64,000 nucleotides of DNA, from positions 11,044,411 through 11,108,410 of the forward strand of contig NC_087073.1 in the NCBI RefSeq assembly GCF_026151205.1, given 5' to 3'. Position 1 is the first letter of the stretch. The number at the start of each line of letters is the position of its first letter. A model generated the notes under the pieces. The model worked only from the letters and a program-made list of their open reading frames with translations, did no database searches and was not told the origin of the DNA. The stretch is from Bolinopsis microptera. Taxonomy: Eukaryota > Ctenophora > Tentaculata > Lobata > Bolinopsidae. Positions 25,860-53,300 of the stretch are shown piece after piece. Position numbers and translations under genes: made by a program.

Positions 25860-26569
25860 GGTGTGGTGTATTTGTTAAGGATGTGTCGGTTAGATTTGCC
25901 ATCTTGATCTATGATTTGACATGTAATACGTACATTTCGACAGTTGCTTTTTTAAACCTTAACACAATAATTTAGGAGATGATATTAAAAAGAAGGATCG
26001 ATCACGGATCGAAGAATTCATTTATGACTGTGCTCACTGCTCGGTTGTATTTCACATGGTACCAGCCCTGCGAGCTGCCTCATACAACGGATTGGTGGTT
26101 TCATTTGCAAGATGACAGACTTCTACACTTCTCAATTCTCAAAGCTGTATCATCATATTATACTTATAGGATAAAGGTTGTTATTTTATACCTTAAATTA
26201 AGTACATTCATTTAGCAATTCACTTTACTCGATAGCATTAGCTTCTTTTAATTAACCCCTCTGATTTAACCCCTGCGAGCTAATTGCTATTATATTTTGT
26301 TATTAATATTATTTGCCATTTTATTTGTTAAATTAGTCACATTTCCACTTTCCAGGTTCAAATTATAGAGATATAGTAATTGAGAGCGGCTTAAGGAATC
26401 AAGGAACGTGCTATAGAATATCTCTTTAAACAGGTAACATGTTATATAAGTGAGAGTAATTACTAATTGGTATTATTTCTTAATGTGTACGGTAGATATC
26501 GTTAACATATAATAATAGTCATAATAGTACAGCTGCTATAGGTCAAAAATTTGCCCCTTACGGCTTACA
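25860..26569 (+). repeat. Duplicated block A, copy 1
   Basis: Nearly identical to 27639-28292. Copy 1 carries a roughly 40-bp insertion (around 26158-26200) after GCTGTATCATCA. Both copies keep an open frame starting MILKRRIDHGSKNSFMTVLT (78 and 70 codons), but the length differs because of the indel, so coding is doubtful. Confidence 0.8.
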
Positions 26570-26570
26570 C

Positions 26571-27528
26571 ACGTTACGTGAAGTCGAGTGCAGACTGTAA
26601 TCCAAAGTACTGTAATCCAAAATACTGTAATCGAGTGTTACTGTAATCGTAAAGTGATGGTCACCCTTTAGTTACGCCATTAAATAACCGCTTGTTAGTT
26701 CCTCTTGAAGATGTATGTGCAGTGAAATTTTGTACATATGCCCAAACATGGGCATATGGTTTTTGGCGCACAACTCCACCATTTCTTTTCTAATCTGGAT
26801 GGAAATTCATATACGAGTTCAGACGACAAAATCTGGGTTTTGAGCTTTTCGGGTGATTTGGATCTTCAACAAATACTGAGCTACATAATGGTCAATATGT
26901 AGTTTAGGCTTACCTTTCATACACCAAAATTTCCACTGCAATAATAGGTCATAAACTAAATTCACGATGAAACGAGAAAAGTGAACACTGGATATGGCGA
27001 GAAAGTTTCATAAAACTGGTTACTTTTAGCAAAATAGGGAACAAGGTACGTGAAAACTGGAAAATATTAGTTACCTTGAAGAATAAGGTACATCGAAACT
27101 AGTAACTTTTATTGAGCAGGCCGTATATCGAAAATGGTTACTTTTAGTGAACATGGCAAGTTAGTTTCATCAAAACTGGTAACTTTTAGTAAACATGACC
27201 TGGCGAGAAAATTACATCAAAACCAGTAACCCACTCTTTCTCTCAATCCCTCTGTCACAACCGTCTCACCACCTTTCTCACCCCTTTAATCGCTCACCAG
27301 TCACCCCTATACTACTAAGAGAAAGAAAACTTCGCCGGTTGAAGACGATAGTTTTGATATTCGGGTTAAAATATTTGATTTTTTCTTCACTTAAAGGTCA
27401 TTTCCGTCAAAAATTTAAGAAGAATGTTTACTGTTTAGGACACTAGTTTATATTACAACCTGAACGTGTTGGGAATTGTCAAGATACCACATTGCATATG
27501 ACACGTAGCATGGATCAATCAACGTCAA
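26571..27528 (+). repeat. Duplicated block B, copy 1
   Basis: From ACGTTACGTGAAGTCGAGTG to CAATCAACGTCAA, nearly identical to 30611-31527. Copy 1 has about 42 bp more within an internal degenerate repeat of TCAAAACTGGTAACTTTTAG. Non-coding. Confidence 0.85.
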
Positions 27529-27638
27529 AAATTATTTGGATATATTTTGGTTTTATGAACCTCTTTATATATAATAATGACCAGGCTAGGTGGTATGACC
27601 AAATAAGGATGTTTGTCTAATTTCTCGTACGGATAAGG
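27528..27638 (+). repeat. Duplicated block C, copy 1
   Basis: AAATTATTTGGATATATTTT to TTTCTCGTACGGAT matches 33119-33226. Confidence 0.8.
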
Positions 27639-28292
27639 TGGGGTGTATTTGTTAAGGATGTGTCGGTTAGATTTGCCATCTCGATCTATGATTTGACATA
27701 ATACGTACATTTCGACAGTTGCTTTTTTAAACCTTAACACAGTAATTTAGGAGATGATATTAAAAAGAAGGATCGATCACGGATCGAAGAATTCATTTAT
27801 GACTGTGCTCACTGCTCGGTTGTATTTCACATGGTACCAGCCCTGCGAGCTGCCTCATACAACGGATTGGTGGTTTCATTTGCAAGATGACAGACTTCTA
27901 CACTTCTCAATTCTCAAAGCTGTATCATCAAAGTACATTCATTTAGCAATTCACTTTACTCGATAGCATTAGCTTCTTTTAATTAACCCCTCTGATTTAA
28001 CCCCTGCGAGCTAATTGATATTATATTTTGTTATTAATATTATTTGCCATTTTATTTGTTAAATTAGTCACATTTCCACTTTCCAGGTTCAAATTAGAGA
28101 TAGTAATTGAGAGCGGCTTAAGGAATCAAGGAACGTGCTATAGAATATCTCTTTAAACAGGTGACATGTTATAGTGAGAGTAATTACTAATTGGTATTAT
28201 TTCTTAATGTGTACGGTAGATATCGTTAACATATAATAGTCATAATAGTACAGCTGCTATAGGTCTAAAATTGGCCCTTTACGGCTTACACA
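27639..28292 (+). repeat. Duplicated block A, copy 2
   Basis: Second copy of 25860-26569, lacking the roughly 40-bp insertion. The A-B-C-A' order shows the block has been reused locally. Confidence 0.8.
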
Positions 28293-28371
28293 CTGCACGG
28301 CTAACACACTGCACACACACATATTATTACTCCATACTTACCCGGGGACCCGAGGCTATAATGTAAGAAAT

Positions 28372-28418
<47 letters not shown>

Positions 28419-30296
28419 AGTATATCCCCGGGTCAAAATCGGAAAAAATCCTACATTTTAATATACTTTAATATACCTACAATTAGAAGATTTATATTCT
28501 TCGTTAAGATTTACATGATGAACTATATTTTTCACTCAGATTCGCAAGATAAGCCTGTTTTATGACTAGTACATGAATTTCCATCCAGATTGGTCAAAAA
28601 TTGGCTGAGCTATGAGCTTAAAAAATATGCCCATATTTGGGCATACTTTTTTTTATGAAAATCTTTTCAAAATTTACATACAATATAACATGTGGCGCAA
28701 AATAAAATCAAAATATAACTGATTGCGATCTCTAAAGGACAGATGTATGTAAATTTCAAAGGGAAACCAGAACGCAGTAAAATTGTAGTCGAAACCACAC
28801 CGCACAAGCCTAGTCCCTGGTAAATGAAAATCAATCAAATAATATGTTGATAAAAAATCATATCCCATCAGTCCTTCTCGGAGCTTACGATCTTATTGTT
28901 CCTTATAACATGAACTCGCTGAGGCTCCAATTCCCGTTTCTGCTTAACTTCAAGAACTAACTTCCTGAAGGCAGCTCTCTGCTCGGCTGATCGGTCGGGG
29001 CTGATGTACACTGAGTCATACCCCTCCACTTCTCTTAGTTTTCTCGCTTTGCTCAACACTCGCCGCACATGATCTGAGCCGCTGAGAGTGAACTTGATAG
29101 GTTTAACGGCTGGTCCTCCATCTGATACAGTTCTCCCCATCCTACAGCAAGAAACGATTCGAAGTTTCTCATCTATGTTTTCTAGTACCTCAAGCACTCT
29201 CTTTTCCAGGATTTCTTCACTCTTTTCTGGTAGACCGTAGATGACCAGATTTTGACTACGATCCTCTTCCTCGGAGGTACTTTTCAGAGCAGCTTTCATT
29301 TTCTTAGGCGCTAGCGCCTTGCTGCATGAATTCTTCACAACTGACGACCAGGCTTTGAGTTCGCTTTTCACTGTCGTCTGAACAGAGGTCAAATCTTCAC
29401 TTTTCTTCTCAAGCAATTGTCCTTGCAGTTTAATCACAGTGTTCTGATCTGCAATCTTTTCGTCCTTCAGTTGGTCGATTTCATCTTGTAGTTTGGTGGC
29501 TGAAAACAACAGCGGTGAACAATAACTGTCGAGAATGTCGATAAAAGTTTCCATCCAATCACACAGTATAGCCTTGGTGATCTGAGGCTTGTTGAGCGTT
29601 TCTTTACGTAACACATTGGATTTCTGAACACCTGCCGCTTGACGCATATCGTTGAGTAGCATAATCTGAGCACCCAAAATCTGTTCAGCATACATTGATC
29701 TGAATTTGAGTGTAGAATAATTCATCGCTATTTCATTGTCAAGATTCTCCAAGTATTTGTTAACCATGATGTACAATGTACACGCAGGGCCAGTTTAATA
29801 TACACGAGTATATTATCTGCTACACAGTGAGAGCTGTTTAAACCGACGCAAAAGCAATTAACTGATAAGACTGCCTTTACGCTTTTGCCCAAATTCGCTT
29901 TTGCCCAAATTCGATAAAATTTCAATATTTTTTAATGAGACTAACTCTATGTGAAAGATATAACTCAGTGTTTGTTGAATATAGTGGATACTAAGTAAAA
30001 AGACCTCCATGAACAAAATTGGGAAAATTGCACATAATATCTCGGTTCGGAATACTAGCCAAAATGACTTCATTAAAATTGAAATAACTCCATCAGTTTT
30101 CAATATTTTTTCAATAACTTTTTGGAATCGATTAAGAATTGCATTTCAAGCTTATTTTGGGCAACAATTTTTGATGTAGGCCTCCAAGGATATAGGGATA
30201 TATTAAAGTATATTGTAGGTATATTAAAGTATATTAAAGTATATCCCCGGGTCAAAATCGGGAAAAATCCTACATTTTAATATACTTTAATATGGT

Positions 30297-30331
<35 letters not shown>
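28372..30331. mobile_element. 1.96-kb element bounded by G43 and C33, carrying a LINE-type ORF1
   Basis: G43 (28372-28414) and C33 (30299-30331) mark the ends. Just inside each, a 57-bp module in direct orientation (28415-28471 and 30234-30290) starts TTAAAGTATATCCCCGGGTC and ends TTTTAATATACTTTAA, so each module has its own short inverted ends. The insertion splits a dispersed repeat: the left flank is CCCGGGGACCCGAGGCTATAATG and the right is CATAGAGATTCGGTGAAATGAC, adjacent parts of the repeat at 53305-53390. The flanks AAGAAATG (left) and AAGAATG (right) look like a target duplication with one base difference. The only gene is the minus-strand ORF1 at 28868-29776. Confidence 0.65.
28868..29776 (-). 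CDS. LINE-type ORF1 (RNA-binding) protein, 302 aa
   Basis: Intact ORF. Residues about 90-150 are heptad-like and Lys/Glu/Gln-rich (LQDEIDQLKDEKIADQNTVI), predicting a coiled coil. From about 175 comes an RRM-like region typical of non-LTR ORF1 proteins: QNLVIYGLPEKSEE (beta1 with an IYGLPE motif), VSCCRMGR, PIKFTLSGSDHVRRVLSKAR, VYISPDRSAEQRAAFRKLVL. ORF1 proteins of this kind bind element RNA as trimers. No reverse transcriptase follows in the element, so the gene stands alone, either a 5' fragment captured in a DNA element or a mobilised ORF1. The start at 29776 is the first Met; a second Met (MVNKYL) lies three codons on. Confidence 0.7.
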   Translation of the reverse strand: MYIMVNKYLENLDNEIAMNYSTLKFRSMYAEQILGAQIMLLNDMRQAAGVQKSNVLRKETLNKPQITKAILCDWMETFIDILDSYCSPLLFSATKLQDEIDQLKDEKIADQNTVIKLQGQLLEKKSEDLTSVQTTVKSELKAWSSVVKNSCSKALAPKKMKAALKSTSEEEDRSQNLVIYGLPEKSEEILEKRVLEVLENIDEKLRIVSCCRMGRTVSDGGPAVKPIKFTLSGSDHVRRVLSKARKLREVEGYDSVYISPDRSAEQRAAFRKLVLEVKQKRELEPQRVHVIRNNKIVSSEKD

Positions 30332-30333
<2 letters not shown>

Positions 30334-30400
30334 GAATGTACATAAATTCATAGAGATTCGGTGAAATGACAGACTGGCCGGCGCCGCCCATTATCTCCAC
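30332..30400. repeat. Right half of the split GGGGACC repeat
   Basis: CATAGAGATTCGGTGAAATG then ACAGACTGGCCGGCGCCGCC continues the repeat interrupted at 28371. Compare 53330-53385 on the same strand. Confidence 0.6.
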
Positions 30401-30610
30401 ACGTGCGCGCGGCTCTAACCATGAGCCCATGCCACAATCGTGGTTACACTCACACAGAATTAAGTAAACGAAATGTTTCTGATAATCCCATCTTAATAAC
30501 ACTTTTGTCAGCATTTAGCCTAAATATTTCCGTTTCGCGCTCTAATTTAATGTTAATCACCAGTTGAAATTAATCGCTCGATGACGCCAGAACTTTTGGA
30601 TTTTTCTAGG

Positions 30611-31527
30611 TACGTTACGTGAAGTCGAGTGCAGACTGTAATCCAAAGTACTGTAATCCAAAATACTGTAATCGAGTGTTACTGTAATCGTAAAGTGATG
30701 GTCACCCTTTAGTTACGCCATTAAATAACCGCTTGTTAGTTCCCCTTGAAGATGTATGTGCAGTGAAATTTTGTACATATGCCCAAACATGGGCATATGG
30801 TTTTTGGCGCACAACTCCACCATTTCTTATCTAATCTAGATGGAAATTCATATACGAGTTCAGACGACAAAATCTGGGTTTTGAGCTTTTCGGGTGATTT
30901 GGATCTTCAACAAATACTGAGCTACATAATGGTCAATATGTAGTTTAGGCTTACCTTTCATACACCAAAATTTCCACTGCAATAATAGGTCATATAGACT
31001 AAATTCACGATGAAACGAGAAAAGTGAACACTGGATATGGCGAGAAAGTTTCATAAAACTGGTTACTTTTAGCAAAATAGGTAACAAGGTACGTGAAAAC
31101 TGGAAAATATTAGTTACCTTGAAGAATAAGGTACATCGAAACTAGTAACTTTTATTGAGCAGGCCGTATATCGAAAATGGTTACTTTTAGTGAACATGAC
31201 CTGGCGATAAAATTACATCAAAACCAGTAACCCACTCTTTCTCTCAATCCCTCTGTCACAACCGTCTCACCACCTTTCTCACCCCTTTAATCGGTCACCA
31301 GTCACCCCTATACTACTAAGAGAAAGAAAACTTCGCCGGTTGAAGACGATAGTTTTGATATTCGGGTTAAAATGTTTGATTTTTTCTTCACTTAATGGTC
31401 ATTTCCGTCAAAAATTTAAGAAGAATGTTTACTGTTAAGGACACTAGTTTATATTACAACCTGCACGTGTTGGGAATTGTCAAGATACCACATTGCATAT
31501 GACACGTAACATGGATCAATCAACGTC
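30611..31527 (+). repeat. Duplicated block B, copy 2
   Basis: Second copy of 26571-27528. Confidence 0.85.
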
Positions 31528-36228: not shown

Positions 36229-39200
36229 CTAAAAGAATGCTACTACCAGGAGAAAAATTATGATGGCTGAGCTGCTAGTAAGGATAGCAGCTTGCGAATC
36301 TTCTGGCGAATCTTCTGGCGAATCTTCTGGCGAATCTTCTGGCTTATCTTCTGGCTCATCTTCTGGCTCATCTTCTGGCTCATCTTCTGGTTCATCTTCT
36401 GGCTCATCTTCTGGCTCATCTTCTGGCTCATCTTCTGGCTCATCTTCTGGCTTAGCTTTAGCTGTAATTTAAAATATGTTAAATAATTGCGGAACTAACA
36501 ATCGTTTAAAATCGGTGGAAACACGAATTTATCTCATAAGAATCTTAGAGTCTCAGAGGACGGGGTAATTACATTACTTCTCTCCCAGACTAGAGACTAA
36601 AGAGCCGAGCAAGCTAGACAATACTATCACTATCATATAATTAGCTTTAACAGTAACTTACGGACACATTTCAAGGCATCAAAGATAGCCTTGAAGTCGG
36701 TGTATAATTTAGCGTAATCGTTGACGCAGCTGAAACTGATGGTGTCGTATCCAAACTGAGACTCATCATTGAAGTTTTCCGGGTCGTACTCGAACACATA
36801 CCTGGGATTCCAACTTTATCAATTGAATCATAATATAATCCTGAAACGTACAGACTTACTTTCTCGCTAAAACACAATTTTCTGTAGTTTGAAGAGGACT
36901 CCGCGACTTACAGACTTACTTTCTCGCTAACACACAATTTTCTGTAGTTTGAAGAGGACTCCACGATATTCAAAGGAGAAACAATTACTGCCCCCAGCCC
37001 CCTACCCCTGCCCTCTCCCCCCAGCTCCCTCTTTACATAATACCAGCAATCAAAATCATGCTCTGAATAGCAGTTACAAGCGGTAACAGATTAAACTGTT
37101 CCGCGCCATTTCTATAGCCAAAGAAAATGGCTCTTACTAAATCGCTCGCCCAAAAATTTCACGTGACTTTGGTTTTTTTGGTTTTGCAGCCGTACAAAAC
37201 GGTTTTACATTAACCCTAATCCCAACCCTTACCCTAACCATAACCCCGAAGCTATCCATATTCTTAACCACAACCCTAACCCTAACCCGAACCCTAAATA
37301 ATCGAATTCACGTTTTACTAGCCTGTCACGTGACCAAAACGGTTTTTTGCCCATAACTCTCCAGAGCAGCATTTTAACCCTACGTCATGGGGGGTGATTC
37401 GGAATCAGCGTCCAAAAATACACCGATCTGGATCACTTTCATGCCTAAAGGGCCTTTTCACAAGAATTTTCTTAAAGTTTGGGCGAGCGATTTAGTAGGA
37501 GCGAAAGAAAATAGGTTTAATAGGTTCACCAGCGATACTGTTCATACAATATAAATGTGACCAAACATATGACCATATATACATGATGTAGACCACTTAC
37601 TCGGCTCCATCATTTTTGTCTTTACAGATAAAGTCAAGTCTTTCCCCCAAGAAGATAACTTTGTCAAGATCCCCCTCCGACAGTTCCATTTCGACAAACG
37701 GTCCAAAGTTGTCCACGTGCACATCTATGTGCTCATCGGTAGTCATTACAATCGCATCAGCTTCCGACACACTACAAACTGAAAGTCACAGTTAAAAGAG
37801 CTATCTAAATCTGAGTAGCAATTACGACTAACTCTGAACTTATCGTACCTTATTTGGACAGACATAATTCTGGATGGATATATTTTTATTCTTGGCTTAC
37901 AATTTGTTTATTTGGCAACTTTTTGCTTCAAGCTTTGTTAATGAACAGCCAACTGATTCGAAGACAATATAAAAGCAGCCGTATAATACTCGTTTAAACA
38001 TAAAAAAGTCCATCACTAACTTTTAATGTCTGTCCAAATAAAGTCCCATAAGGTCCGTGCAATCACCCATATATTCCGCAACCATTAGTTAACAAATTTG
38101 ACAATCAAGGGATAAATTTGCTAATCGCGATAATAGTCCCATAACACATATTGACCTTTGTATTAACAAGTTATATCGTTTCTTACCTAAATTTTGTTTT
38201 GCATAACAGGTGCTATGAGTATCATCCCAACAGCTATATCTATCGCTTTGACACGTCTCTTTAGTATGATATTTACCGTAAGGCATTTTACTTTTAACCT
38301 CTCTGACGGTGTTGGGTTGAGGACAGTAGGGATTTTCACTCTGCACGAGATCCGTATACTTGTCTGAAGTGAAGGAGGTTATTTTATAAAAGCAAATAAA
38401 TCACGAACAAAATACATGTCTGAAGTGAAGGAGGTTATTTTATAACAGCAAATAAATCACGAACAATATACATGTCTGAAATGAAGGAGGTTATTTTATA
38501 AAAGCAACTAAATCACGAACAATATACATGTTTGAAATGAAGGAGGTTATTTTATAAAAGCAACTAAATCACGAACAATATACATGTCTGAAATATAGGA
38601 GGTTATTTTATAAAAGCAACTAAATAATAATCATAATATTATTTCGCTTATAGAGTCAGAATACCCCGACTTAGTATGTATAGCAACTGCTCGTAACTAA
38701 ATTAATAATACTATAAACGAGCGCATAGTCACCATGGAAACGCATAGTCACCATGGTAACGGTTTAAACTTTGGATTTACTCACAGTTGGCTGTGTTTAC
38801 GCATTCCGGGAATGAATAACCATTTATCATCACCGCAGCGCTACCGGGGTAGCTTTCCCGTTGCAGGATATAACCGAATCCAGCTTCTCCCATCACGACA
38901 ATTTCGATGTCACTGGTTGTAATAGAGTCTCCGGGGATGGCTGGGAAGTTGTTTTGCTATCAGTTTCAATACTTTCAACATTACTATATAACAAATAATT
39001 TGAGATCATGAATACGATGTTGTTACATTGAAACTTAGAACATATCCTTATCCTGATGAGAGCCTTTTCTCTGTCGCAACAAACGGAAAAACTGCAAATT
39101 TTGCCCCAGAATCATATATCAATATATTATAGGTGTGAACTGTGAAAACGTTTGGGCTTATTACTCAGTTACTGATACGACTAGCTATAATCATTCATTC

Positions 39201-43100: not shown

Positions 43101-43946
43101 TTTTATAATATAGTAATACCTTCGCTTTTTTGGGCTCCGCATGATAATTCCCGACAGCTTGCTGGAGGGAATTTGCGGCCCGAAGAACCGAAGGTATTAT
43201 TTGTTATAATACCTTCCGGGAATTATATCCACTAAAAGTCTCGGACACTGAGAGCTGATAATTTGCCGATATATCCCGCAAGGGAAGCCAAGGTATTATC
43301 AGCATAGACCTCAGACTGGCTGGCGGCAAGTTGTAAAAGAAATAACACTGGCGTTCTATATATTAGTCACTATATTGTATCATGCGCACGTATCGGATTA
43401 CACCCCTTCCAATTCGGAACCGGAAAATATTATAATACATAATAGCTTGGCAATTTCGTGCCCGCGCGTTCCCTCCAGCAAGCTGTCGGGAATTATCGCG
43501 CTCAGCACTCATTAGCCAAGCTATTATCATATTATAATATTTTCCGGTTCCGATTGGAAGGGGTGTAATGTGATACGTGCGCATGATACAATATAGTGTG
43601 TAATATATAGAACGCCAGTGTTATTTGTTATAATACCTTCCGGGAATTATATCCACTAAAAGTCTCCGACACTGAGAGCTGATAATTTGCCGATATATCC
43701 CGCAAGGTATTATCAGCATAGACCTCAGACTGGCTGGCGGCAAGTTGTAAAACAAATAACACTGGCGTTCTATATATTAGACACTATATTGTATCATGCG
43801 CACGTATCGGATTACACCCCTTCCAATTAGGAACCGGAAAATATTATAATATAATAATAGCTTGGCTAATGAGTGCTGAGCGCGATAATTCCCGACAGCT
43901 TGCTGGAGGGAACGCGCGGGCACGAAATTGCCAAGCTATTATGTAT

Positions 43947-44138
43947 TATAACACACATAACCCCGGCATGCGCAGGGATTATATTTCAATTTTTCCCGCG
44001 ACGCGCGGGAAAAATTTATAATAATTTCGAGTGCGAAGCACGGGGGATTATTATGAAAATAACCCCGACGTGCTTTAGCACGAGGGGTTATTTTAATATA
44101 ACTTAAGCGTGCCGGTGTTATGTGTTATAAACCCCTCC
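43947..44138. repeat. Three-hairpin cruciform
   Basis: An outer stem, ATAACACACATAACCCCGGC against GCCGGTGTTATGTGTTAT, encloses two clear GC-rich hairpins and one weaker one. They are TTTTTCCCGCGACGCGCGGG (closing with AAAAA), ATAACCCCGACGTGCTTTAG (closing with CACGAGGGGTTAT), and the weaker TTTCGAGTGCGAAGCACGGG. Confidence 0.7.
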
Positions 44139-45085
44139 GGGTTAGTGCTAGGACCAACAAATTTGACATTTTACTCTTAATTCTAGCTATATGAGATCAG
44201 TATGGAAAATATGAAATGGAATTGGGGACTACCAAATAAATACAACTAAGGTACTATGACATTTGAAATTGGCGTTATATCTTGACGGATGTTACTCGTC
44301 TAAATTTCTTCGAAGTAGCGCGCGCCGCTTTCTTCTCGAAATGTTGACGGATGTTACTCGTCTAAATTTCTTCGAAGTAGCGCGCGCCGCTTTCTTCTCG
44401 AAATGTTAGACTGATGGCAAGAGCTACGAAGTAGCGCGCGCCGGGTCAGATCATTAACAATGGTCAACGTTATATCTAAACATTATTCGTCAGTCAGAAC
44501 GTTGGTCGTTGAATGAATATGAATATCGATAAGGGGCGTCGAGTTAAGCCTGGCAAGCGATAAAAGGTGGAACTAATAATGATATCGTGTCATCAAGTTC
44601 ATCAAAGTAGACGACTGTAATACATGGCTTATATCAAACACGACAAAATTAACCGCACAAAATCAAATGTAACCGTCGAGACAAGTTCTGGAACTGGTCC
44701 AATTAATGTAAGAGTTTAAGTAATGTAAGCAGTGTGCTGGAGTTTTGCCAGCGCCTGCAATTAGACCGATACGATCAAGTGTATTTATAGTTCTTACGTT
44801 AAGCCATAGGTCACGTGACATTTTTTACCAATGCGCGTCGTAGTAGTTAGTCACGTGATACACGTCATCAAAACACTTGACAGTGCGCGGTTGAAATTCT
44901 CATGGAATATCAAAACAAAACAAATCTTGTTGAGCCAAATTAGCGGGGCGGGATTATAGAAGCTCTGCTGGGGTTATTTATTCAGCGGGAAAAAACTAAC
45001 AGCGGGAGCCGGGATTATCAGAATCTATTTAGCGGGAGCCGGGATTATTAGAATCTTATTCTAACCCGGAGGGGTTTATAATACC
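44123..45085. mobile_element. Inverted-repeat element nested in the palindrome cluster
   Basis: GTTATAAACCCCTCCGGGTTAG at the left and CTAACCCGGAGGGGTTTATA at the right are inverted. The adjacent palindrome modules continue on either side. Non-coding. Confidence 0.55.
44281..44460 (+). repeat. 62-bp direct duplication plus partial third copy
   Basis: TTGACGGATGTTACTCGTCT...GAAGTAGCGCGCGCCGC is present at 44282 and 44344. A shortened form follows near 44430. Another copy with its own shortened follower is at 52770-52892. Confidence 0.85.
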
Positions 45086-45850
45086 TTCCGGGAATTATAT
45101 CCACTAAAACTCGGGGACACCGAGGGCTGATAATTTGCTCATTTTTCCCGCAAGAGAAGCGAGGGTATTATCAGCCCAGACTCAGACTGGCTGGCGGCAA
45201 GTTTCAAAACAAATAACACTGGCGTTCTATATATTAGACACTATATTGTATGATGCGCACGTATCGGATTACACCCCTTCTGCAATCGGAACCGGAACGT
45301 ATTATAAAATATAATACCTCCGCAACTTCGTGCCCGCAAATTCCCTCCAGCAAGCTGTCGGGAATTATAGCGCGCAGCACTCAGTGGCGGAGGTATTATA
45401 GTATTATAATATTTTCCGGTTCCGAATTGGAAGGGGTGTAATCCGATACGTGCGCATGATACAATATAGTGACTAATATATAGAACGCCAGTGTTATTTG
45501 TTTTACAACTTGCCGCCAGCCAGTCTGAGGTCTATGCTGATAATACCTTGGCTTCCCTTGCGGGATATATCGGCAAATTATCAGCTCTCAGTGTCCGAGA
45601 CTTTTAGTGGATATAATTCCCGGAAGGTATTATAAGAAATAATATCTTGGCTGCTTCGGGCCGCAAATTCCCTCCAGCAAGCTGTCGGGAATTATCACGA
45701 GCGGCCCGAAGCAGCCAAGGTATTATTGTATTTTAATACTTGCCGCCAGCCAGTCTGAGTCTATGCTGATAATATCTTCGCTTCCCTTGCGGGAAAAATC
45801 TGCAAATTATCAGCTCTCAGTGTCCGCGAGTTTTAGTGCATATAATTCCC

Positions 45851-47486
45851 GAAAATAGTTATAAAAGCTATACTTTTCTACATGTTTCGCTATCGCCTGA
45901 AGAGCTGTACACTTTAGTCTAAAGAAAAATTCAGAAAAAATTATATATTAATCCCTTACTCCTTCATAAATCTAATCAAGTATGGAATCGACCCTTTAAA
46001 TAACGGCCTAAATTATGGGTTTTAAAGTAGCAGTACATCACCACAAAATTCTGAAACTAAGGAAAAGTTCAAAAGATTGTCAACAGACTGCAGTTTTTGA
46101 ATTTTGTAATTTCGATATTCAGAAGTAAAGTTATGACCGGCCGTTGAAAAATATTGATTTCATCATAAAATACACATAATATTTCAACCACGCCAATAAT
46201 TCTGATGCACTCTGATGTACAGCTGCCCTAATGGAAATTCTTTGCTGAACTGAGCTGGAGTATGAATGAGGCAGCAGCGATAAATTCGATAAAAGTTCAA
46301 AACGTTATACATAATTCGAGCGAAAATAGCATGTTTTTAAAAATGTTTCCTCAGACTCTTCAGCAAAATTTGATGGACGAAGAAAATTGAAGCCCATGCT
46401 TATTATATTAGGACACATGAAGTGGATCAAGAGCTGGCGGTGGGATCGAATGAGAAACTACCTTAAACATTTTGCAATTTATGGAGGATTTATGGAATAT
46501 TACCGCGAATATCAATAAGCTGTGATCTTAATTTGCCTCACGTTTGCGCGGCTGTATACGTGACGTTGGGGGTCACGACGTGTTACAATTAAAAGTCTTA
46601 ATCAGGTAACCAGAAGTGGTCAACCCAGCTGTAGAGGAATCTACGAATCTATTTCTTAGCCATTTCTGTCACATTTTTAGTGACTTATGTTACAGGTCTA
46701 AGGTTTTCAAGTCAGTTGGGATCTAATTTCAGTAAGAAATTTCAATTAATCATGTGATCTAGTTAATCAGGTTATGATCAAGATCAATGACTGAGGAGGC
46801 TCACTCTGCGTGTGCATTCAACGCTGCAATTAGGAGAAAGATATTTGTTAGACAGCCATATAGATTTTGGTGACTGTGTAGAATGCAGAAAACATAGAAA
46901 CTAATATGATGAAGTATCTACAGACGTGATCGGAATAATTATAAACGTAAAGTAAAAATATCCACATTCCAGGAAAAAGGAAATGCGTAAAATAAAACGA
47001 AATAGCTCGAGGGATGGTAACATCATACCTGCTGCTAACCTAATACCCAGAATCCGTTGAGAGACGATCAACCGCGGAGGCCGGAGCTTCCTCTGAATCG
47101 CTATCAACCATAAATCAGAATGCAGTGTAATCAGTAATTAGTTGTATTTAAAAAACAAAACTCGAGATGGGTTATTAATCATTATCTTACTACCTTATCG
47201 ATCGGTCATAATTGTCACTGACAAGTTTTTCACGGCCAAATTTTTCACGGACATAATTATTTACGGTCATGACCGCCCAAATAATTGTAAACATTTTTAG
47301 TAAACTCTAGAATGTCATGTGACTGAGGACTAAGGACTAGCCGTAGGGCCTGTTGTGATATCATGGGTCGCTTAGGTTCCATCAGGATCTGGTAGTCCTC
47401 ATAATCCTACGGCCTCTATGTATCGTCATCTAGCACAACTCCTTAAGAATCTTATAAATTTGGCATGTGAAAATGTGCAGCCTTCC
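45851..47486. other. No gene; dispersed repeat copy 2 at 46389-46610
   Basis: 46389-46610 matches 40868-41095. The minus-strand ORF at 46901-47107 has no recognised character. Confidence 0.4.
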
Positions 47487-49086: not shown

Positions 49087-49481
49087 CTTGACCTATTGGC
49101 ATCTATTTCTATTGTTGCGCAATATTTGTTGCACGTGTTGAATTTAGTTTTATAATAACTTTGCAACGGCGCAAATCGGAGTTCTAGAATTGCGCGGGAG
49201 ATTACGCGGGAGATCTATTAGTTTAATTATTGGGTCAGTTCGTGTTATGACGTGTCGACTACGTTTCGGTATACTTTATCCCTACCGTTTTATTACATTT
49301 TCTTTATTTACCTATTACTATACATATTTAATCTTAAATTGTCATTTTAGTGGAACTATGTAAAAGGGGATCGTTGCTAGCGTCGAGATTGTCTTAACCC
49401 TGCCTTAGTCAGTTGAAAGTCTGATAGCATATGTTCCGTTTGATTTGACCAAACTAATGCCTTTCATTGCTTTATAATAGC

Positions 49482-51968
49482 TAGTACAGTCAAATCCGTC
49501 CTTATTTAAGCCTTTGTCGGACAAAATTCGCAACAAAGCGATTTTAACGGGATATGGTCGGGACAGTTCCCAGGAATCATTCCAGAAAATTCCCAAAATT
49601 TCTGACTTGAGCAAAATCCACAATTACCACTTTTTTACCACCTTTTTACCACTTTAGTTTTCCACAAATAAGTCACGTTCTGAATATCCAAGAGGGTTCT
49701 AGTTTAAAGCAGTGTGTTAAGAAAACAAAGAAGAACAACTTTTCCTTTAACAACTTTTTCAAAAATAAATTATTTAATTAATTAATTAAATAATTAGTAA
49801 ATTTTCAAATATTTTAAAAATATATTTTGATCAAAAATGTTCACAATTACATTACACGTACAATGAACTAATTTTTATAAAACTTTTGAAAATTTTCACT
49901 TTCAATATTTTGGACTTGTAAAATTTTCGAAATTTGACAAGAATACCCACTATTTACCACTTTTTACCACATTGGATCTCCGCTAATAAAACGACTTCTG
50001 AATGTCGTAGAAGGTTCTAGATTGAACCGATGTGTTCAAAACATAAGAGAGAACAACTTTTTATTCGCCAACCTTTGGATTAGATAAATAATCAATTAAT
50101 TAATTAGATAATTAATTAATTCATAATGGACGGTGGTATGTTGCTTCATAAAACTACGTGGACTATTGGATTGACTTTTGCCGATATATGTGTCCAATAT
50201 TTCGATGTTTTAAGGAAATTTGAAGATGTAACAGTTATTTTCGATGGGTACCAGTCCAGTACGAAGGATATGATGCATAAAAAGAGGAAAAAAGATGACT
50301 GCATTGATATTCACCCTGGACTTGATAAAAAACTTTCTGTCTCTAAGGTACAGTTTCTTAGCAACAATGGAAACAAGAGCAGATTCTTCTTTATGTTAGG
50401 AAATTTCCTAGTTGGCAAAATTATCACGGTTCTACACGCAGAAAAAGATGCAGATGTTTTGATTTGCAGAGAGGCAGTTGAATGGTCTAATCAAGTTGAT
50501 GTTTCTGTAATTGGTGATGATACTGATCTGCTTGTCATTTTACTGCACATGACCAAACACTTTGCATTTGACCACCGACTGTTTCTCACCACCAAAAGCT
50601 ACATCTATGACATCGAGAAAATCCGAAGTGTGCTTGGTAAGAGGCACGTAAACACGATACTGCTGTGCCACGCTTTCACTGGATCAGACACCACCAGTCG
50701 GGTCCACGGAGTTGGTAAGGATCGGCTATTCAGAATGATCGCATCTATTGATGAAAGTACAATAGATGCTTTTTATTCGGCAAATTCTACGCCAGCTACC
50801 ATAAAGCATGTCGGAGAACTTTTGATGCTGCAGCTGATTTCATCAAAATCGAGATCACTAGATGAAGCCAGACTTTCTGTTCTTGAACAAAAGTCGCAAT
50901 CTTCATCAGCAGACATCAAGTGCGAACAGCTCCCGCCAACATCTGGGGCAGCTGAACAACATTCTTATCGTGTGTACCATCAGCTGCAGGCGTGGGATGA
51001 GAATGACCTAGATCCGATAAGCTGGGGATGGAAGATGAACAATGGGGCGCATGTACCAGTGACCACTCTTATGAGTACAGCTCCGAAAAAGCTCATTCAA
51101 AACATCAGTTGCAACTGTTTAAAGTCAGGTTGTGGCAATGCTTGTTCATGCAGAAAAGCAGGAATACATTGTGGATCAACCTGCCTCAAATGTCAGGACA
51201 ATTGCACCAATGTTCCAGCTGAGGACTCATAAGTATAGCTGTTTCGATTTCCCAATTAATTACATGAAAAGTTGTTAATTATTCGTGTTATGTAATTTTA
51301 AAATATTTTGATCGAAAATAATTTTTATAATTTTTGAATATTTGTTAAATAATTGATTAACTGATTAATTAATTATCTAATTCAAATGTTGGCAAATAAA
51401 AAGTTGTTCTCTCTTATGTTTTGAACACATCGGTTCAATCTAGAACCTTCTACGACTTTCAGGAGTCGTTTTATTAGCGGAGATCCAATGTGGTAAAAAG
51501 TGGTAAATAGTGGGTATTCTTGTCAAATTTCGAAAATTTTACAAGTCCAAAATATTGAAAGTGAAAATTTTCAAAAGTTTTATAAAAATTAGTTCATTGT
51601 ACGTGTAATGTAATTGTGAACATTTTTGATCAAAATATATTTTTAAAATATTTGAAAATTTACTAATTATTTAATTAATTAATTAAATAATTTATTTTTG
51701 AAAAAGTTGTTAAAGGAAAAGTTGTTCTTTTTTGTTTTCTTAACACACTGCTTTAAACTAGAACCCTCTTGGATATTCAGAACGTGACTTATTTGTGGAA
51801 AACTAAAGTGGTAAAAAGGTGGTAAAAAAGTGGTAATTGTGGATTTTGCTCAAGTCAGAAATTTTGGGAATTTTCTGGAATGATTCCTGGGAACTGTCCC
51901 GACCATATCCCGTTAAAATCGCTTTGTTGCGAATTTTGTCCGACAAAAAGACGGATTTGACTGTACTA
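49482..51968 (+). mobile_element. 2.49-kb long-TIR transposon carrying a FEN/PIN-like gene
   Basis: The left TIR is 49482 to about 50110 and the right TIR about 51345 to 51968, each about 620 bp. The ends read TAGTACAGTCAAATCCGTC on the left and its exact reverse complement on the right. TACAGTC fits Tc1/mariner-style CAGT ends with a TA duplication (49485-49486 and 51964-51965). TA-GTACAG with TA at 49482-49483 and 51967-51968 is the alternative. Inverted landmarks include GGGATATGGTCGGGACAGTT, TTTCTGACTTGAGCAAAATC and GGATCTCCGCTAATAAAACG. The left TIR has a small insertion (TTATTTAAGCC near 49503). The only gene is 50126-51232. No DDE transposase is recognised. Confidence 0.8.
50126..51232 (+). 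CDS. FEN/PIN-like nuclease-domain protein with CXC-like tail, 368 aa
   Basis: Intact ORF filling the space between the TIRs. The acidic positions follow the FEN/XPG-type PIN pattern: FDGY (Asp40), AEKDADVL (Glu106, Asp108, Asp110), IGDDTDLLV (Asp131, 132, 134) and AFTGSDTTS (Asp188). Residues 49-57 are basic. The C-terminus (about 329-360) has Cys-x-Cys-rich spacing, CNCLKSGCGNACSC then CGSTCLKCQDNC, like a tesmin/TSO1 CXC zinc-binding segment. Nuclease activity is inferred from these residues and not shown. The ORF starts exactly before the first DGG motif, and proteins of this type I recall are longer upstream, so it may be N-terminally trimmed or captured. Asp2 could be the first metal ligand. 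Confidence 0.65.
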   Translation: MDGGMLLHKTTWTIGLTFADICVQYFDVLRKFEDVTVIFDGYQSSTKDMMHKKRKKDDCIDIHPGLDKKLSVSKVQFLSNNGNKSRFFFMLGNFLVGKIITVLHAEKDADVLICREAVEWSNQVDVSVIGDDTDLLVILLHMTKHFAFDHRLFLTTKSYIYDIEKIRSVLGKRHVNTILLCHAFTGSDTTSRVHGVGKDRLFRMIASIDESTIDAFYSANSTPATIKHVGELLMLQLISSKSRSLDEARLSVLEQKSQSSSADIKCEQLPPTSGAAEQHSYRVYHQLQAWDENDLDPISWGWKMNNGAHVPVTTLMSTAPKKLIQNISCNCLKSGCGNACSCRKAGIHCGSTCLKCQDNCTNVPAEDS

Positions 51969-52089
51969 AGCCTGAGGTCCCAAGTAAATAATAAGTGTTT
52001 ACGTACGCTGACCAAATTTCAACGTCTATGTAGCGCATGTAGTCTTGGCACTTCTCCCTCCAGTATGCAGTAACCACTTTTCAGGTTTC

Positions 52090-52370: not shown

Positions 52371-53300
52371 ACCAAAGGCTGAAAGGCTACACACGTCGCA
52401 TATGAAGACAAAAGCGCGGGTAATTTTGGCACCACTGTGGTGCTTTTACCGCCGTGAGGCGGGCGCGCGCAACTGCAAGTGCAAGGGCTCTGGATAAAGC
52501 AAGACATATTCTTAATTCTATTTCCCTAAAAATTCGGCCGCGCAATCGTGCGCGGCGGGCCTACAAGTACAACGTGAGATTGTAGCGAGATGCGCTACTG
52601 GGCCGCGCCGTGCATCCAATAATGCTTCTTCCAACCACATAAATCGGCGAAATGCACCACTGGGCCTCGCCGAGCTGGGAAAGATTGACATGATCGTGAA
52701 TCAAAACGTGAGACAACCCGAAAACCGTTGACGTGAGTTTGTCTGCAGCGCGCGTTTTGGTAGCCAGTAGTTGACGGATGTTACTCGTCTAAATTTCTTC
52801 GAAGTAGCGCGCGCCGCTTTCTTCTCGAAATGGCCCGACGGCAAGTGCTACGAAGTAGCGCGCGCCGGGCTAGATCATTAACAATGGTCAAGCCAGTAGC
52901 TGTACTGAATGTACTCTGTAAACATTAAACATACAAAATGTTGTAGGTTTATAACCTACCAGGACGCGTGCCGAGTTGGAACAGATATTTTACGAGTATC
53001 ACCCGTTAAACAAAATGTTAATTACCGACGCCACGCGATGTTAATCCTTTACACGTCACAGCGTTTAGCTGCTCAATAATGCATCGCTACTAATTATTAA
53101 TTAAATTGTTGCTCTATCCAGAGCCCTTGCGCTTGCAGTGGCGCGCCTCCCAACGGTAAACAAAGGCGCCCGCGCGCAGCGGCGCGAACAGCGAAAGCAC
53201 ATGGTTAGGTGAAATTTGTAGGTTTATAACCTACCAGGACGCGAGCCGTGTTGGACTCGTCGACGGTCACCCGTTAAGGTGAAATTAAATTGGCACCCGT
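52371..53300. repeat. GC-rich interspersed repeats, no gene
   Basis: Inverted relatives of 35106-35215 at 52575-52677 (TAGCGAGATGCGCTACTGGG, AATCGGCGAAATGC). A copy of the 62-bp unit lies at 52772, with its shortened follower after it. GTAGGTTTATAACCTACCAG, a small palindrome, occurs at 52944 and again at 53218. Confidence 0.6.

Follow-up and report, generated by a model that had tools for sequence, protein, structure and literature searches.

The little-studied Academ superfamily of DNA transposons and its lineage AcademX reportedly go back to Kapitonov and Jurka in 2010 and Kojima in 2020. The nucleases of Academ are of the XPG type, and the superfamily also has a Cys8 zinc finger. Long terminal inverted repeats (TIRs) are a feature of C. 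elegans Tc4, a foldback element of the Tc1/mariner group. The DDD/E superfamilies include Academ (PMC9587614), for which curated bivalve elements have a mean length of 5,565 bp (PMC10294476). AcademX encodes a nuclease and generates target-site duplications (TSDs) of 3 or 4 bp, in contrast to AcademH with a helicase and duplications of 9 or 10 bp (PMC10045372). KolobokP (PMC9587614) resembles the family described here as a DNA transposon lineage coupling a transposase with an extra nuclease, but that nuclease is of the His-Me finger type, the duplications are Kolobok-type TTAA, and the proteins are unrelated.

The window, a stretch of 64,000 nucleotides (G000:C2:11044411-11108410) from a 264.7-Mb eukaryotic assembly, contains a 2487-bp element at 49482-51968 (Table 1). 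We consider it quite likely that this element belongs to a family of cut-and-paste DNA transposons of the Academ (AcademX) type, as a copy that has lost internal sequence and is not autonomous. The family shares with AcademX a nuclease, TIRs, a long multi-domain protein and an autonomous length near 5.5 kb, whereas the window copy differs in being a deletion derivative. Its TSDs have the 3 or 4 bp given for AcademX (PMC10045372), and its FEN/XPG-type nuclease is, as in that lineage, encoded by the element itself. The family has been likened to AcademX by published description, and membership is probable but unproven. The original prediction had named a nuclease-type transposon and a non-autonomous copy among its options, and the gene pieces kept by sibling copies indeed show a deletion derivative of a nuclease-encoding family. 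Its suggestion of an undescribed system is unsupported, since Academ(X) transposons that encode a nuclease and make 3-4-bp duplications have already been published (PMC10045372).

Table 1. Features of the element in window coordinates
Feature	Position	Strand	Basis
TSD, left copy, AGC, 3-bp	49479..49481	.	flank comparison
Left TIR, begins 5'-TAGTACAGTCAAATCCGTCCTTATTTAAGCC...; holds two ~160-nt units of 72% identity, spaced 318 nt	49482..50121	+	
368-aa ORF, 3' end of longer transposon gene; starts at first FEN catalytic Asp	50126..51232	+	
FEN/XPG-like nuclease core: D2, D40, D108, D110, D132, D134, D188	50126..50755	+	profile alignment
CXC-like 9-Cys tail	51110..51205	+	
Right TIR, terminates ...GACTGTACTA; without the short stretch marking the left end	51340..51968	-	
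TSD, right copy, AGC, 3-bp	51969..51971	.	flank comparison

The family gene and its remnant in the window

The single long open reading frame (ORF) of the element, 368 amino acids in length, carries the blocks (I)DG, FDG, (E/A)xDAD, GDDTDLL and GSD, and these FEN/XPG-like acidic blocks and the Cys-rich, CXC-like tail of nine cysteines were found as predicted. ORF and Pfam searches of the window element revealed no DDE domain, in keeping with the earlier remark that no such transposase is visible. Siblings with the same ends keep different pieces of one long gene, N-terminal Cys-rich in some and FEN/CXC in others. For example, L012 retains the Cys-rich N-terminal part, and in L009 (C1:12023403-12027248) N-terminal pieces are followed by FEN/CXC in colinear order; upstream coding parts in siblings comprise N-terminal frames and a Cys-rich frame. 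It had been asked whether the ORF always lies within copies sharing these TIRs: parts of it adjoin the right end in nearly all siblings, and siblings also carry other pieces of the gene.

Two relatives, L039 and L040, have a multi-exon gene with a 46% identical FEN/CXC protein, and a query made from the N-terminal Cys-rich region matches this relative as well, at a point lying 3.8 kb before its FEN part (C6:4305821). Middle exons precede the FEN part in L039, the first of them belonging to a 471-aa frame, and the right end of this copy, the one end compared, matches the window family at ~68% across 305 nt and also in the last 20 nt of the terminus. Cousins at ~30-35% identity have long frames of up to 1,342 aa with both middle and FEN parts, a pairing present in many cousin loci, in one of them within a single 1,342-aa frame. 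Based on positions in L039/L040 and the long cousin frames, the intact family protein is estimated at ~1,200-1,400 residues, and its predicted order starts with a Cys-rich N-terminal region, followed by a middle region that ends in RRSDRFW..DQIIEQ, then the FEN/XPG-like nuclease and the CXC-like tail. No full-length copy with the window element's own TIR subfamily was found. DUF6589 (PF20231) was rejected as a link to the middle region, its matches being weak and at other loci.

Because the siblings and L039/L040 hold the other parts of the gene, the window ORF was not captured and does not stand alone: internal deletion has left it as the 3' end of the transposase-like gene that belongs to the family. 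The captured gene that had been among the earlier options, and with it capture from the host, is rejected, the other parts of this long gene lying in same-end siblings.

The FEN/XPG-like nuclease domain

Profile alignment against archaeal FENs, FEN1 and EXO1, the latter two with sequences identical to PDB chains, matched all seven catalytic acids and the GVG hairpin to their FEN1/EXO1 counterparts over 204-211 columns, which bears out the FEN/XPG-like reading of the ORF. Residues D34, D86, E158, E160, D179, D181 and D233 and the GIG hairpin align to IDG, FDG, DAD, DDTD, GCD and GVG, the catalytic carboxylates and helix-hairpin-helix follow FEN/XPG order and spacing, and in the window ORF the GVG hairpin sits after GSD. 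FEN1 has K93 and R100 after D86, and K47 and R54 of the ORF match this spacing at +7 and +14 from D40. A column-shuffle control reached the alignment score in 1 of 200 shuffles and the 200-column length in none of 200; the hhalign probability was low, at 2%, for a query profile of just two effective sequences. The FEN part is ~15% identical to FEN1/EXO1/XPG nucleases, matches a 5'-3' exonuclease profile at E=0.017, and gave two AlphaFold models at pLDDT 38, too poor for fold reading. The family shares with the FEN1/EXO1/XPG 5' nucleases seven catalytic acids, the K93/R100 equivalents and a GIG/GVG hairpin after the last Asp, but its domain is joined to N-terminal regions of the transposon and to a CXC-like tail. 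CXC domain scores for this tail were below the Pfam cut-offs (11.2 bits against 23.5 for PF03638, 13.6 against 23.3 for PF18264), and with nine cysteines in CXC-like order it may be called CXC-like only. Sequence searches of Pfam, NCBIfam, PHROGs and PDB returned no significant family, and no relatives were found in viral, phage, plasmid and prokaryote collections.

It is unlikely that the family is a distinct, non-Academ superfamily in which the FEN/XPG-like nuclease makes the transposition cuts without a DDE core. Such a superfamily would suit N-terminal and middle regions that, as far as read, have no Pfam match, a FEN part without a PDB match, and a longer relative that keeps all FEN catalytic residues; however, Pfam may have no Academ transposase model, the remainder of the middle region has room for a DDE core, and AcademX as published agrees with the family in its nuclease gene, in the 3-bp duplication and in element size (PMC10045372, PMC10294476). 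We regard as quite improbable the specific proposal that the FEN/XPG-like domain both excises and inserts the element, giving 3-bp staggers, in a transposon class devoid of any DDE core.

The start of the window ORF coincides with the first FEN Asp (MDGG, as against IDGG in the L039 counterpart), so the frame is a 3' remnant that lacks the first beta strand and all N-terminal parts, and by itself most likely no longer yields a working nuclease. Its dN/dS against most siblings is ~0.2-0.5, indicating that selection acted at the protein level on this part of the source gene. These ratios below 1, together with a frame that is open for 368 codons where siblings have stops, would also be expected if the product were functional per se, for example by repressing the family in truncated form or by serving it as an accessory nuclease. 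We hold this to be very improbable given a nuclease fold without its first beta strand and a structure found in one copy only, and the dN/dS values may stem from selection on the ancestral long gene.

Ends, target sites and mobility

The TIRs are ~610-640 bp long and 97% identical to each other. The long TIRs of the original prediction were recovered as a 608-nt ungapped block of 97% complementarity (49513-50120 and 51340-51947), from which they extend to both ends of the element at 49482 and 51968, and each arm has an internal repeat (~72% identity, 318 nt spacing). The outermost letters of the TIRs are TA, reading from 5'-TAGTACAGTC to GACTGTACTA in nearly all copies, and nearly all carry the shared sequences TAGTACAGTCAAAT and ATTTGACTGTACTA, one at each end. 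TA is part of the TIR, since nearly all copies have it within both shared ends.

Just outside the ends, AGC flanks the window element on both sides, and a 3-bp direct repeat is present in 15 of 18 genuine copies (two read as 4-bp). Of the 25 pairings scanned in total, which include spurious ones, 15 match at 3 bp, where unrelated flanks would be expected to give 0.88. The copies without a simple 3-bp repeat are L020, which is in an array, L022, and L023, in which an ATA repeat is present but beyond an extra GTACTA. In L016 a 37-bp tandem duplication holds the element in its second unit, and its first unit is a natural empty site; the empty unit reads uninterrupted AATATGCTTCTATTGCTG and the occupied one AATATGCTTCT-element-TCTATTGCTG, which establishes a TCT duplication and the exact element ends. 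Comparison of other insertions, as had been advised, therefore defines a 3-bp target duplication, and the TA duplication first supposed is ruled out by the repeats outside TA and the L016 empty site.

A search for further copies, also recommended earlier, found 282 genome-wide matches to the 19-mer terminus at up to one mismatch against 0 for the reversed control pattern, which excludes chance. Near-identical pairs occupy different sites with different flanks (L026/L027 99.7%, L019/L022 99.4%, L014/L015 98.2%), and L039 and L040 have 0 differences over 3,271 bp up to TACTA, after which their flanks are unrelated. These near-identical copies moved recently.

The ends had been read as mariner-like, and the resemblance is superficial: CAGT lies near the ends and the TIRs are long as in Tc4, but the TA duplication and mariner transposase of Tc1/mariner are absent from the window family. 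Siblings with the same TIRs and a mariner transposase, named beforehand as evidence that would count against the prediction, were not found among the siblings examined. A Tc1/mariner-derived foldback element with a captured host FEN-like gene is scarcely credible, since beyond the CAGT beside TA and the Tc4-like TIRs it is opposed by the 3-bp duplication and empty site, by ORF pieces in nearly all siblings with the 5' part of the gene also within siblings, and by the fact that none of the 13 genomic DDE_3 matches falls inside a copy whose position was listed (fewer than the 282 termini). Separately, Tc1/mariner DDE_3 occurs in unusually long open frames of 1,380-1,555 aa at G000:C3:10776274, C12:1193434 and C13:12949048.

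Several other repeats were observed. Sibling copies L024 (5904-6848), L011 and L018 contain a LINE endonuclease fragment (PF14529, E=2.4e-12) that has multiplied along with the element. L016, L026 and L027 are palindromic with an ORF fragment in each arm, which suggests a possible route to long foldback arms in this family. Elsewhere in the window, a cluster of long inverted and direct repeats at 43103-45865 (336-nt arms, 95% complementary and separated by 1,962 nt, and further pairs of 252, 135 and 134 nt) is possibly a further long-TIR or foldback element. A 62-nt tandem unit at 44282-44416 (TTGACGGATGTTACTCGTCTAAATTTCTTCGAAG...) has similar stretches near 52786 and near position 42 of L018, and is a dispersed short repeat. 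Several blocks of 170-300 nt at 25924-31469 recur at intervals of ~1.75 kb and ~4.0 kb with 97-99% match, which points to recent duplications, and tandem arrays matching at 94-96% comprise 12.9 copies of 12 bp (36298-36452) and 4.8 copies of 56 bp (38355-38625).

Proposed mechanism and significance

For a family of Academ type, we envisage that a full-length protein made elsewhere in the genome would recognise the long TIRs and mobilise deleted copies in trans. Its middle region would hold an RNase H-fold (DDE) core, as in other Academ elements, that carries out strand transfer with a 3-bp stagger; when the element is excised or integrates, the FEN-like domain may trim or cut the 5' strands or flaps. 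Apart from the question of what such a flap-endonuclease-like domain does inside an Academ transposase gene, the window element is an ordinary deletion derivative. With exact ends, a 3-bp duplication and empty site, many defective substrates (282 termini) and a recently mobile, longer relative, this genome makes that question testable.
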